From: Ensifer adhaerens | GTDB lineage: Bacteria > Pseudomonadota > Alphaproteobacteria > Rhizobiales > Rhizobiaceae | Length of the DNA stretch: 64,000 bases | Assembly (NCBI RefSeq): GCF_013283195.1 | Contig: NZ_JABEKT010000001.1 | Location: 1 to 64,000, forward strand | Reading direction: 5' to 3' | Shown: positions 34,508 to 43,817 of the stretch, in pieces | How positions within the stretch are numbered: position 1 is the stretch's first letter | How the letters are laid out: the number at the start of each line of letters is the position of its first letter | Translations under genes and position numbers: made by a program | The notes under the pieces: model-generated | The model's input: the letters and a program-made list of their open reading frames with translations, nothing else | Database searches by the model: none | Told to the model about the DNA's origin: nothing

Positions 34508-36037
34508 ATGAAATCAGCAAGGATTGCACTGCTTCTGGGAACGGCGCTCGTGGCCTCCACATCATTCGCCTTCGCGCAGGAAAAGGGCGGCGTCATCAAC
34601 GTCGCCACGGTCGGCGAGCCGCCGACACTCGACCCGATGGCCTCAACGGCCGACCTCGTCGGCATCGTCTCGCAGCACATGTTCGAGACCCTCTACACCT
34701 TCGACAAGGATTGGAAGCCGACACCGCTTCTGGCTGCGGCCATGCCCGAAATCAGCGCCGACGGCAAAACCTACACGATCAAGCTGCGCTCCGGCGTCAA
34801 GTTCCATGACGGCACCGATATGGAGGCGACCGACGTCGTCGCCTCGCTCGAGCGCTGGACGAAGACGGCCTCGCGCGGCAAGCAGACGGCAACGACCATC
34901 GCCGGCATCGAAGCCGTCGACGCCACCACCGTCAAGATCACGCTCAACACGCCCTACGCGCCGCTGGTCTCGCTGCTCGCCTTCAACAACTCCGCCGCAA
35001 TCGTGCTGCCTTCGGAAAAGCAGGCCGAGCCGATGGTCGATTTCGTCGGCACCGGCCCCTACAAGCTCAAGGAGCGCAAGGCCGACCAGTACATCCAGCT
35101 CGAGCGCTATGACGGCTACGTCTCGCCCGAAGGCGAAAGCAACGGCTACGGCGGCGCGCGCCACCAGTATGCCGATGAAATCCGCTTCGTGCCGGTTCCC
35201 GATCCGAACACCCGCGTCGAGGCCGCCGTCTCCGGCCAGTACGACTACGTCGATTCCATTCCGGTCGAATCCTTCGAGCGGGTCAAGGGCTCTTCGGCCT
35301 CCGAACCTGTCATGCTGCAGCCCTTCGGCTGGCCGGTCTTCGTCCTGAACTCCGGCAACGGCATGACCAAGAACCTGGAGCTGCGCAAGGCGATCCGCAC
35401 GGCGCTCAGCATGGAAGACATGATGGCGGCCGCCTTCGGCAGCACTGACTTCTACGCGCTCGATGCCGCTCTCTATCCGGCGCAATATGTCTGGCGCACC
35501 GAAGCCGGCACGGAAGGTGGCTACAATGTCGCCGATCCGGAGAAGGCGGGCGAACTCTTGAAGACCGCTGGCTACAAGGGCGAGCCGCTGCGCATCCTGA
35601 CCAGCCGTCAGTACGAATTCCATTACAAGATGGCCCAGGTTGCGGCCGAGTATCTGAAGCTCGCCGGCTTCACCGTAGACTTGCAGGTGGTGGATTGGGC
35701 GACGCTCACCCAGCGCCGCGCCGACCCGACGCTCTGGGATATCTATATCACCCACAGCCCGTTCCTGCCGGAACCAGCGCTGATCGGCATGATGTCGACC
35801 AAGGCACCGGGCAACTGGGATACGCCGGCCCGCGCCAAGGCCGTCAATGCCTTCAACGCCGAATCGGATGCCGGCAAGCGCGTAACGCTCTGGGCCGACG
35901 TGCAGAAGGTGATCTACGAGGAAGTCCCGTTCATCAAGATCGGCGATTTCAACGCCCTGTCGGCCAAGGCCAAGACGCTTGACGGCGTCTCGCCCGCTCC
36001 GTGGCCCTACTTCTGGAACGCTTCGATCAAGAAGTAA
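34508..36037 (+). CDS. ABC transporter substrate-binding protein, peptide/dipeptide type
   Basis: 509 residues of the SBP family 5 (DppA/OppA-like). Signal peptide 1-23 (cleavage after AFA). The opening GGVINVATVGEPPTLDPMAST and the YTIKLRSGVKFHDGTDMEATDVVASLERW block are diagnostic. GAGAGGAA precedes the ATG. It heads a divided operon with two permeases, a deacetylase, RidA, and (beyond an IclR gene) a PLP enzyme and a fused ATPase. The ligand could be a peptide, an opine-like or an N-acylated amino compound. Confidence 0.93.
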   Translation: MKSARIALLLGTALVASTSFAFAQEKGGVINVATVGEPPTLDPMASTADLVGIVSQHMFETLYTFDKDWKPTPLLAAAMPEISADGKTYTIKLRSGVKFHDGTDMEATDVVASLERWTKTASRGKQTATTIAGIEAVDATTVKITLNTPYAPLVSLLAFNNSAAIVLPSEKQAEPMVDFVGTGPYKLKERKADQYIQLERYDGYVSPEGESNGYGGARHQYADEIRFVPVPDPNTRVEAAVSGQYDYVDSIPVESFERVKGSSASEPVMLQPFGWPVFVLNSGNGMTKNLELRKAIRTALSMEDMMAAAFGSTDFYALDAALYPAQYVWRTEAGTEGGYNVADPEKAGELLKTAGYKGEPLRILTSRQYEFHYKMAQVAAEYLKLAGFTVDLQVVDWATLTQRRADPTLWDIYITHSPFLPEPALIGMMSTKAPGNWDTPARAKAVNAFNAESDAGKRVTLWADVQKVIYEEVPFIKIGDFNALSAKAKTLDGVSPAPWPYFWNASIKK

Positions 36038-36057
36038 GTCTTCACCCACTTGAAGCC

Positions 36058-36099
36058 TTCGGCGGGCGGCATCCCTTTCAGGGATCGCTGCCCGCCGAA
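36058..36099 (+). repeat. Long intercistronic hairpin between binding-protein and permease genes
   Basis: TTCGGCGGGC pairs with GCCCGCCGAA (10 bp) and an inner ATCCCT-TTC-AGGGAT forms a second stem. No T-run follows. Such hairpins commonly protect the 3' end of the highly expressed binding-protein mRNA. Confidence 0.65.
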
Positions 36100-36150
36100 T
36101 AGCCCGGCGCCCCCCTTCCGGCGCCCGTGCGGAAGAAGTTCGAGGCATCC

Positions 36151-40740: not shown

Positions 40741-41940
40741 ATGCCTGACCGCGACATCCGCGAAGCTCTCGGACTTCGTCCCGTTATCAACGTATCCGGC
40801 ACGATGACGGGCCTCGGCGCGTCGATCGTGGTCCCGGAAGCGATCGACGCGATGACAGGCATACTGCCGCATTTCGTCGAGATCAACGACCTGCAGCGCA
40901 AGATCAGCCCGGTGATTGCCCGGCTGACCGGCGCCGAGGCCGGCTTCGTCACCGCGTCCTGCTCGGCCGGCATCAGCCTTGCCGTCGCCGGCACTATGAC
41001 CGGCAACGATCTTGCCGCGATCGAGCGCCTGCCCGACGCCACAGGGCTGAAGAACGAAGTCATCATCCAGATGGGCCATGTCGTCAGCTACGGCGCGCCG
41101 GTTGACCAGGCGATCCGCATTGCCGGCGGCAAGCCGGTGCTCGTCGGCCAGGCAACATCGGCCTACCGCTATCATATCGAAGGCGCCATCAACGAGCGCA
41201 CGGCGGCCGCCGTCTATGTCGTCTCCCACCACGTGGTGCAGTATGGCCTCGTCGGCCTGAAGGAGTTCGCCGAGGCTTGCCATGCCAAGGGCGTTCCCGT
41301 CATCGTCGACGCCGCTTCCGAATACGATCTGAAGATCTTCCTAGAGCAGGGCGCCGATATCGTTCTTTATTCCGGCCACAAGTTCCTGGGTGGTCCGACA
41401 TCGGGCATCGTCGCCGGCGAAAAGACGCTGGTGCGCAACGCCTTCCTGCAGAACCTCGGCATCGGCCGCGGCATGAAGGTCGGCAAGGAGAGCATGCTCG
41501 GCGTCATGGCGGCCCTCATCGCCTGGGAAACTCGCGACCACCAGGGGATCCGCGACCGCGAGGCCGGCTATCTGAACCTGTGGCGCGACACGCTCGATGG
41601 CCGTCCCGGCATCAAGCCGGTGATCGAAGCCGATCCGACCGGCAACCCGCTCGACCGCCTGCGCGTCACCATCGATCCGCAGGAAGCCCATATCACCGCC
41701 TGGGACCTCGCCGATGCGCTGGCGTGCGGCACGCCGCCGATCATCGTGCGCGATCATGAGGTCGAGCACCATTACTTCTATCTCGACCCCTGCAACCTGC
41801 ATCCCGGCCAGGAAACCGTCGTGGCGAACCGCCTTTCCGAGGAACTGACGAAGGCGCGCAGCTCCAACGAGATCATCGCGACGCCGCTCCACGAGCGCAA
41901 CACCCGGCGCTTCGCCGGCCTGTTGCGCTGGCCGGACTGA
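40741..41940 (+). CDS. SelA/DgaE-like PLP-dependent enzyme (ammonia-lyase candidate)
   Basis: About 399 residues, fold-type I PLP enzyme of the COG1921 group. The PLP-binding Lys is in [15 protein letters not shown]. The N-terminal [19 protein letters not shown] is shared by SelA-like proteins of the DgaE (D-glucosaminate-6-phosphate ammonia-lyase) type. It is not selenocysteine synthase: no selB or selC is near and the length is short. The ATG at 40741 has GGAGA seven bases upstream. Adjacent deacetylase and RidA genes support an amino-compound dehydration/ammonia-elimination role. Confidence 0.85.
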
Positions 41941-41984
41941 GATCGACCCGTAGCCCCCGTGCCGAACGACAAGGAATGGACGAC

Positions 41985-43817
41985 ATGACCCGCACCGCCG
42001 CTGCCACCAATCCGTCGAAAGACCCCGTGCTTTCGGTCGAGAACCTGACGACCTCGTTTCTGGTCGACGGCGCCTGGAAGCCGGTGGTGCGGGACATCTC
42101 CTTCTCGGTCATGCCGGGGGAGACGGTGGCGATCGTCGGCGAATCCGGTTCGGGCAAGAGCGTGACCTCGCTGTCGATCATGCGCCTCCTGCAAAAGGAC
42201 ATGAGCCGCACCGAGGGCCGGGTCATGCTCGGCGGCCGCAATATCCTCGACCTACCGGAAAGCGACATGCGCCGCGTGCGCGGCAACGACGTGGCAATGA
42301 TCTTCCAGGAACCGATGACCAGCCTCAATCCGCTGTTCACCATCGGCGACCAGATTTCCGAGGCACTGCTTTGCCACCGGCCGATGAGCAAGGCGGAGGC
42401 AAGGGCAGAAACCATTCGCCTGCTCGACAAGGTCCGCATCCCCTCGGCGGCATCCCGTTTCGATGAATACCCACATCGCTTCTCGGGCGGCATGCGCCAG
42501 CGCGTGATGATCGCCATGGCGCTGGCCAGCCGCCCGAAGCTGCTGATCGCCGACGAGCCGACGACCGCGCTCGACGTGACGATCCAGGGACAGATCCTCG
42601 ATCTGATCAAGGTGCTGCAGGAGGAGGAAGGAACCTCCGTCCTGTTCATCACCCACGACATGGGCGTGGTCGCAGAGATCGCCGACCGCACGGTGGTGAT
42701 GTTCCGCGGCGAGGCGGTGGAGACCGGCCAGACGGAAGACATCTTCCTGCGCGCAAGACATCCCTATACCCGCGCGCTGCTTTCGGCCGTGCCGATGCTC
42801 GGTTCGATGAAGGGCGTGCCGCAACCGCTGCGTTTTCCGATCATCGACAGCACCACCGGCCTGCCGGATACGCCGGTCGAAGGCGCAAGCACGGTCGCCG
42901 AGACCCGCCCGATCCTCGAGGTCAAGAACCTCGTCAAGCGCTTCGACATCCACGCCGGCCTACTCGGCAGGCTGCAGGGCCGCGTGCACGCCATCGAGAA
43001 TGTCTCCTTCAGCCTGCAGCCCGGCGAGACGCTGTCGCTGGTCGGCGAATCCGGCTGCGGCAAGTCGACCACCGGCCGCGCCATCATGCGTCTGATCGAA
43101 CCGCAGAGCGGATCGGTCGTTCTGAACGGCCAGGATGTGCTCGCCATGGACCGCAAGGCGCTGCGCGAGATGCGTCGAACCATGCAGATGATCTTCCAGG
43201 ATCCCTTCGCCAGCCTCAATCCGCGCATGACCGTAGGCGCTGCGATTGCCGAGCCCTATCTCGAGCACAAGCTCGGCACGCCGAACCAGGCCCGCGAAAA
43301 GGTCGCCGACCTCTTGGAGCGCGTCGGCTTGCAGGCCGACATGGCGGCGCGTTATCCGCACGAATTCTCCGGCGGCCAGCGCCAGCGCGTCTGCATTGCC
43401 CGGGCGCTCGCGCTCGATCCGAAGGTGATCGTTGCCGACGAGTCTGTTTCGGCGCTCGACGTCTCGATCAAGGCGCAGGTCATCAACCTTCTGCTCGACC
43501 TGCAGGCGAGCCTCGGCCTTGCCTATCTGTTCATCTCGCACGACATGGCCGTGGTCGAGCGCGTCAGCCACCGCGTCGCGGTGATGTATCTCGGCGAGAT
43601 CGTCGAGATCGGCCCGCGCGCCGACATCTTCGAAAACCCGCAGCATCCCTACACTCGCAAGCTGATGGCCGCCGTACCAATCGCCGATCCAACCCGGCGG
43701 CACACAAGGCGCAATGTCTCAAGCGACGAAATCAAGAGCCCGATGCGCGCGCCCGACTACGCCGTTGCGGCCAGGGAATTCCGCCAAATTTCGGCACAGC
43801 ACTTCGTGCAGGTGTAA
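41985..43817 (+). CDS. Fused peptide-type ABC transporter ATP-binding protein (DppD-DppF)
   Basis: 610 residues holding two complete ABC domains in one chain. The first (about 10-260) has GESGSGKSV and [12 protein letters not shown]; the second (about 310-560) has GESGCGKST and [12 protein letters not shown], each with the DEP/DES Walker B and the C-terminal oligopeptide-transporter extension ([14 protein letters not shown] and [15 protein letters not shown]). Fusion of the DppD and DppF functions is common in rhizobia. It powers the importer whose membrane parts lie 5 kb upstream. The ATG at 41985 has AAGGA nine bases before. Confidence 0.94.

Follow-up and report, generated by a model that had tools for sequence, protein, structure and literature searches.

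We examined a 64,000-nucleotide stretch of Ensifer adhaerens DNA (the window; contig NZ_JABEKT010000001.1, positions 1 to 64,000) that carries, at positions 34508 to 43817, an island of eight genes encoding a solute-binding protein (SBP), two permeases, a fused DppD-DppF-type ATPase, a COG3964-type metallo-deacetylase, a Rid protein, a pyridoxal phosphate (PLP) enzyme of the SelA fold and an IclR regulator. An earlier note on this DNA had named this set, and all eight genes were identified there by Pfam and NCBIfam models, IclR alone being reported on the minus strand. The eight genes form a real, conserved and dedicated regulon, which probably lets soil and root bacteria take up, unblock and break down a blocked amino acid of the D type. 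The catabolic route that we favour, with moderate confidence, would begin with import of an N-blocked D-amino acid and pass through deacylation, elimination and imine hydrolysis under the control of IclR.

Conservation of the island and its operator

With the PLP protein as query, we searched one genome of each species and obtained 91 loci, the best 80 of which were named and compared. Genes for the deacetylase, the Rid protein and the PLP enzyme were all present in 79 of the 80, the exception (L106) having an amino-acid-type importer. Gene order within the island was nearly fixed and the flanks varied by genus, a difference that ruled out the flanking genes as parts of the pathway. The two ATPase domains are separate genes in L103-L105 and in Palleronia, Martelella and Salipiger, in which three genera both lie elsewhere in the operon. 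Because many genera, including these variants, repeat the same set between differing flanks, the gene set is beyond chance.

The reciprocal search covered 297 genomes of the order, the window's own counted in, and treated deacetylases of at least 46% identity as orthologous. In 16 of the 20 genomes that qualified, no more than 10 kb separated the deacetylase gene from the PLP gene, and in 18 the two shared a contig; the separation was 51 kb in G317 and 29 kb in G061, and in G238 and G235 the deacetylase was not on the PLP contig. Islands are also split in the R. etli/R. leguminosarum group, where the deacetylase and IclR genes stand apart from those for the SBP, permeases, Rid protein, PLP enzyme and ATPase. 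The relocated deacetylase kept the island operator, described below, in all three split genomes examined, with scores of 21.4 (L128), 17.0 (L130) and 18.1 (R. etli CFN42). A neighbourhood search for the deacetylase, Rid and PLP genes had been proposed in the earlier note, which counted a lack of co-conservation of the PLP enzyme and deacetylase among the results that would refute it; the co-occurrence and the operator at the relocated gene show that the two are co-conserved. In four loci (L128, L130, L204 and L205) the relocated IclR gene faces a gene for a short-chain dehydrogenase/reductase-type oxidoreductase, with operator matches between the two in L128, L130 and L204.

Across 68 aligned SBP upstream regions, a TTGACA...TATTCT-TTATAA consensus is conserved together with an AT-rich palindrome, and from these regions, the window's among them, we learned an operator matrix 16 bases wide. 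The operator ahead of the importer operon in the window resembles ACATAATTATGGAACA and is the only perfect match to the pattern in the 7.07 Mb genome (at 34471). Among 77 loci spanning 1.6 Mb, 199 of 203 strong matches (score of at least 14) sit at island promoters; the SBP sites do so by construction, and those between the IclR and PLP genes, present in 60 of the 77 loci, are independent. Two of the remaining four matches lie in the island of L108 itself and two elsewhere, neither of the latter closer than 300 bp to the start of a called gene, and on this basis we rejected the idea that the regulon includes an additional enzyme. The IclR-PLP gaps of relatives carried a site scoring at least 10 in 50 of 54 cases, compared with 2 of 270 mononucleotide shuffles. 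Genome-wide, G317 and G061 had exact pattern matches just at the two operons. Matches with one mismatch numbered three and two in these genomes, against three and one for a reversed-pattern control, and matches with one or two mismatches were in general at about the level of that control. Only one-mismatch matches were found in G331, one of them at the SBP gene, and none in G286. Eight of the nine loci with an importer of the polar amino acid transporter (PAAT) type lacked a match of at least 12, the ninth (L117) reaching 12.2, and both loci with a GntP importer (IclR at 54-56% identity) carry operator matches. IclR, whose two domains score above their cut-offs (HTH_IclR 30.3 against 22 bits, IclR_C 80.1 against 24), is the putative binder of the operator.

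Conserved residues of the three enzymes

The deacetylase scored 433.7 bits against NF006689, above the cut-off of 371. The earlier note had stated that all its metal ligands were visible, and the residues that we take, from knowledge of the family, as ligands of the binuclear metal site (H71, H73, K169, H202, H225 and D285) are kept in 102 or 103 of the 103 rows of our alignment. The protein is 76% identical in sequence to 2ogj, which was also the best fold match of its predicted structure (mean predicted local distance difference test, pLDDT, 74.2; template modelling, TM, scores 0.87/0.92); two further fold matches, 8wzy and 8je0, are titled 'a novel amidohydrolase' and were uninformative. 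An 88% identical copy lies within the same island in A. tumefaciens MEJ076. According to PMC12524618, citing Ornelas et al. 2013, the A. fabrum protein 2OGJ is possibly no true dihydroorotase. In one genome (G181) the deacetylase gene has a single in-frame stop and otherwise matches.

The SGHK lysine of the PLP enzyme, pointed out earlier, is Lys218, which together with Arg247, Arg310, Arg341 and His167 is kept in all 126 rows of an alignment at 50% identity or above (His168 in 122). The predicted structure (mean pLDDT 76.6) gave DgaE as first fold match (7lc0; TM 0.73/0.79, 39% identity) and Cap15 as second (8t7j, chain B; TM 0.75/0.82, 34-35% identity), and the sequence scores were 266 bits for DgaE and 201 for Cap15. 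The earlier description of the enzyme as SelA/DgaE-like stands as far as kinship goes, since the catalytic lysine of DgaE (217 in the numbering used in the relevant part of PMC9529869, 213 by chain index) and its His-His proton-donor pair are present as K218, H167 and H168. It does not extend to identity with DgaE, because both DgaE cut-offs were missed (319.8 against 385.3 bits for TIGR01437, 308.2 against 600 for NF047797) and one phosphate-site arginine is lost. In PMC9529869, manual docking brings Arg301, Arg332 and Arg346 of DgaE to the phosphate, and Arg226 is located near the carboxylate; R310 and R341 preserve two of the phosphate cluster, and the third position is C355, which is Cys in 125 of the 126 rows and Arg in four of five DgaE-type rows included for comparison, the fifth having a gap. 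Wild-type DgaE releases an imine and its H163A mutant an enamine (PMC9529869), and a His-His PLP enzyme beside an imine deaminase of the Rid type would be consistent with imine release. The PLP gene of G295 has one in-frame stop and otherwise matches; in a phage collection, two of the three matches listed among 12 for the PLP protein were long Salmonella contigs, probably host DNA.

The catalytic arginine of the Rid protein, which the earlier note had not found obvious, is not missing: R142, within HARSAVGFGSLP, aligns with an Arg of PA0814 and is Arg in all 108 rows of an alignment of the window protein with 107 relatives (one short match was left out), as E159 is Glu in all 108. The likely start is the GTG at 39212, with an ATG at 39140 upstream in the same frame. 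Its solved relatives are 3d01, 2otm, PA0814 and ACIAD3089, and it falls below the cut-off for RidA proper (TIGR00004; 36 against 106 bits). Two of the four solved relatives, PA0814 and ACIAD3089, are Rid1 proteins with imine deaminase activity reported in PMC5619798, and the window protein, which may belong to the same subfamily, keeps the active-site Arg and Glu. The in vivo substrates of Rid1-3 were described as unknown in 2015 in PMC4433059; in the island, the rid gene is linked to a single family of PLP enzymes.

These kinds of enzyme are already known. The window PLP enzyme and DgaE have in common the fold, the catalytic Lys, the His-His pair, two of the three phosphate-site arginines and, as we propose by analogy, elimination from a D-2-amino-3-hydroxy acid; they differ in the curated cut-offs and in the third arginine, replaced by Cys. 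The window island has an ATP-binding cassette (ABC) importer, a deacetylase and a Rid protein in place of the phosphotransferase system (PTS) and 2-keto-3-deoxygluconate 6-phosphate (KDGP) aldolase gene of the DgaE system. A COG3964 deacetylase also adjoins a DgaE-type gene in operons of plasmid records from Bartonella, Priestia, Enterococcus and Clostridioides, but these have PTS or gluconate-symporter settings, a KDGP aldolase being among the genes listed for three of the four, no Rid protein among the genes listed in the stretches, and Arg at the Cys355 position where aligned. Cap15 shares the fold of the window enzyme, but Arg takes the place of the first His of the pair; its role we take to be biosynthetic (capuramycin). 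In Granulicella, genes for two PLP proteins, a Rid protein, a deacetylase and a lactonase stand in a row.

Importer exchange, the proposed pathway and its alternatives

The SBP has 8vdx, YliB (1uqw) and AgaA (6hlx) as its nearest solved chains, and the glutathione importer GsiABCD proper was rejected, the proteins falling under the equivalog cut-offs (857 against 1077 for GsiA, 140 against 594 for GsiB). In DppA an Asp clamps the amino group; inspection of the corresponding part of the SBP showed no such residue, an observation on which we put no weight. Across 125 loci whose PLP protein was at least 50% identical, the presence of the deacetylase followed the type of importer. It was found in 96 of 101 loci with a peptide-type importer, four of the five others being split islands (L129, L131, L153 and L154), and in none of 11 with a PAAT or GntP importer (Fisher p 8e-12, a value inflated by the kinship of the loci). 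None of five loci with a sugar-type importer had it, and two did among the eight in which no importer was recognised. On a quick PLP tree, in which 14 of 55 inner branches were weakly supported, at least five switches between importer/deacetylase states were counted. This pattern suggests a free amino acid as the substrate of the PLP enzyme, with the deacetylase required only where the importer delivers a blocked form.

From the residues and gene associations above we infer each reaction of the pathway, together with the D configuration and the N-acyl group. The family-5 ABC importer would take up a D-alpha-amino acid with a blocked amino group, most likely N-acetyl, and the COG3964 metalloenzyme would strip off the acyl group. 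The SelA-fold enzyme would then eliminate the beta-substituent (a hydroxyl, as in D-glucosaminate), protonate the product and release an imine, which the Rid protein would convert to a 2-oxo acid and ammonia. A single palindromic operator would let IclR govern both the importer operon and the genes for the deacetylase and the PLP enzyme. In some lineages the imported compound may be a beta-glucoside: a gene for a beta-glucosidase of glycoside hydrolase family 1 (GH1) lies between those for the SBP and permeases in L069, L102 and L105 (PF00232 in all three, TIGR03356 above cut-off in L069 and L105), and the L069 operon with this gene begins with an operator scoring 30.2. Two kinds of substrate come into question, amino-sugar acids (N-acetyl-D-glucosaminate, for example) and N-acyl D-beta-hydroxy amino acids of simple structure, and we slightly favour the former. 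The earlier note had proposed the same sequence of import, deacylation, elimination and Rid action; its order fits the importer swaps and the residue conservation, and its reactions keep the conditional standing they had there.

Several observations weigh against this account. L120 lacks a deacetylase despite its peptide-type importer, the deacetylase of L189 is only 34% identical, and the Rid gene is not near the PLP gene in four of nine PAAT loci. No matrix match reaches 9 in the IclR-PLP gap of the window itself, and none reaches 12 in L184, whose island is complete. In 74 other genomes of the 297, the deacetylase relatives were all at or below 40% identity and none, judged by eye, shared a contig with a listed PLP match; the PLP link holds for the orthologous deacetylase subgroup and not for all COG3964 proteins. 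Since the carboxylate-site Arg226 of DgaE is not conserved in the PLP family, the two kept arginines (R310 and R341) may instead serve a carboxylate. Cap15, the second-nearest relative by fold and by sequence, is oxygen- and PLP-dependent according to the title of 8t7j, and elimination by the window enzyme is for this reason likely, not certain. Finally, the 2ogj enzyme reportedly hydrolyses O-acetyl-(R)-mandelate far better than N-acetyl-D-serine, which it is said to use weakly, and an ester substrate is possible on that account.

The last point, with the GH1 gene in three operons, would suit import of an ester, an O-acylated and perhaps glycosylated (R)-2-hydroxy acid resembling mandelate, the PLP enzyme acting on a separate amino part of the conjugate. 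We think this unlikely, because amino-acid-type importers replace importer and deacetylase together, suggesting that deacylation yields the amino acid itself. Equally unlikely in our judgement is that the PLP enzyme is not an ammonia-lyase and instead acts on this fold as a Cap15-like oxygenase-decarboxylase, a racemase, an aldolase or a transferase. Cap15 is nearly as close as DgaE, and the enzyme scores under the DgaE cut-offs; however, the window family keeps the His-His pair that Cap15 lacks, and the Rid gene is near the PLP gene in most loci.

The Opp/Dpp type of the importer might also point to scavenging of D-amino-acid peptides or cell-wall fragments, the deacetylase acting on N-terminally blocked peptides, and two loci carry genes that would fit: L093 has one for an S12 serine hydrolase between two SBP genes, and in L105 the PLP gene is followed by a D-aminoacylase-like one, both below model cut-offs. 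We consider this improbable, given that no gene family beyond the eight core genes is common to the 80 loci (the next commonest occurs in 20) and that sister loci use GntP and sugar-type importers. That the deacetylase is a passenger unrelated to the rest of the island could be argued from plasmids. For the deacetylase, the listings gave 60 of 196 records, and for the PLP protein two sets of 60 from 226; of 51 listed rows with a deacetylase of at least 60% identity, 28 were also among the PLP matches listed, and in these, which were chosen for presence in both listings and so inform on distance, not co-retention, the deacetylase lay less than 2 kb from the PLP gene in seven and 19-57 kb away in 21. 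A passenger role is nevertheless highly improbable, and was dismissed, because the relocated deacetylase retains the island operator in the three split genomes examined and the presence of the gene tracks importer type.

If uptake and breakdown of an N-blocked D-amino acid is the function of the island, it may, more tentatively, constitute an undescribed alphaproteobacterial pathway, common among rhizobia, that serves D-amino-sugar acids in N-acylated form (glucosylated in some lineages) and has a two-operon regulon to itself; the literature searched, mostly without subscription papers, held no description of the assembled regulon. Such a pathway would give a physiological role to the 2OGJ-type COG3964 deacetylase and a dedicated in vivo partner to a Rid1-type imine deaminase, and the PLP gene would be that of a non-phosphorylated D-glucosaminate-type ammonia-lyase. 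To our knowledge, the Agrobacterium enzyme EC 4.3.1.9 has no assigned gene. One pathway under one operator would unite three half-annotated families: a protein misannotated as dihydroorotase, a look-alike of selenocysteine synthase and a Rid protein still lacking an assigned in vivo substrate. As the regulon is frequent in rhizobia and their kin, its nutrient could reveal which compounds these bacteria obtain from soil or roots, and the importer swaps (peptide-type with the deacetylase, amino-acid-type without) would leave N-blocked D-amino acids or amino-sugar acids as the main candidate substrates.

Layout of the window island and neighbouring genes

Positions of the island genes and control elements in the window
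Feature	Position	Strand	Basis or remark
Promoter-like stretch (TTGACA + AT-rich -10 region)	34420..34452	+	Ahead of importer operon; consensus of 68 aligned SBP upstream regions
Operator, palindromic pair of matches	34467..34486	+	ACATAATTATGCAATA at 34471-34486; matrix 26.4, opposite strand 15.4
SBP, family 5 solute-binding protein	34508..36037	+	PF00496, E 6e-73
Permease B	36127..37092	+	PF00528 + PF19300
Permease C	37092..37961	+	PF00528 + PF12911
COG3964-type metallo-deacetylase	37965..39176	+	NF006689 above cut-off
Rid protein with Arg + Glu	39212..39712	+	PF14588; GTG start
IclR regulator	39732..40625	-	PF01614 + PF09339
Divergent IclR/PLP control region, perhaps a diverged operator	40663..40698	.	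Matrix sites in 50 of 54 relatives' gaps
SelA-fold PLP enzyme, probable DgaE-related lyase	40729..41940	+	K218, H167-H168, R310, R341, C355
Two-domain DppD-DppF-type ATPase	41976..43817	+	PF00005, two stretches

Beside the island, on the minus strand at 30166-32736, the window encodes an N-acylglucosamine 2-epimerase, an HbpS-like protein and a ROK kinase, whose genes may form an amino-sugar cluster; few of the 80 loci have similar neighbours. Elsewhere, L118 has DoeB-like and CuyA-like genes in the vicinity of its PLP gene, both scoring below cut-off, and L126 has a CuyB-like gene above cut-off there. A gene for (S)-ureidoglycine aminohydrolase lies beside or near the islands of L062, L086, L129, L151, L153 and L154.

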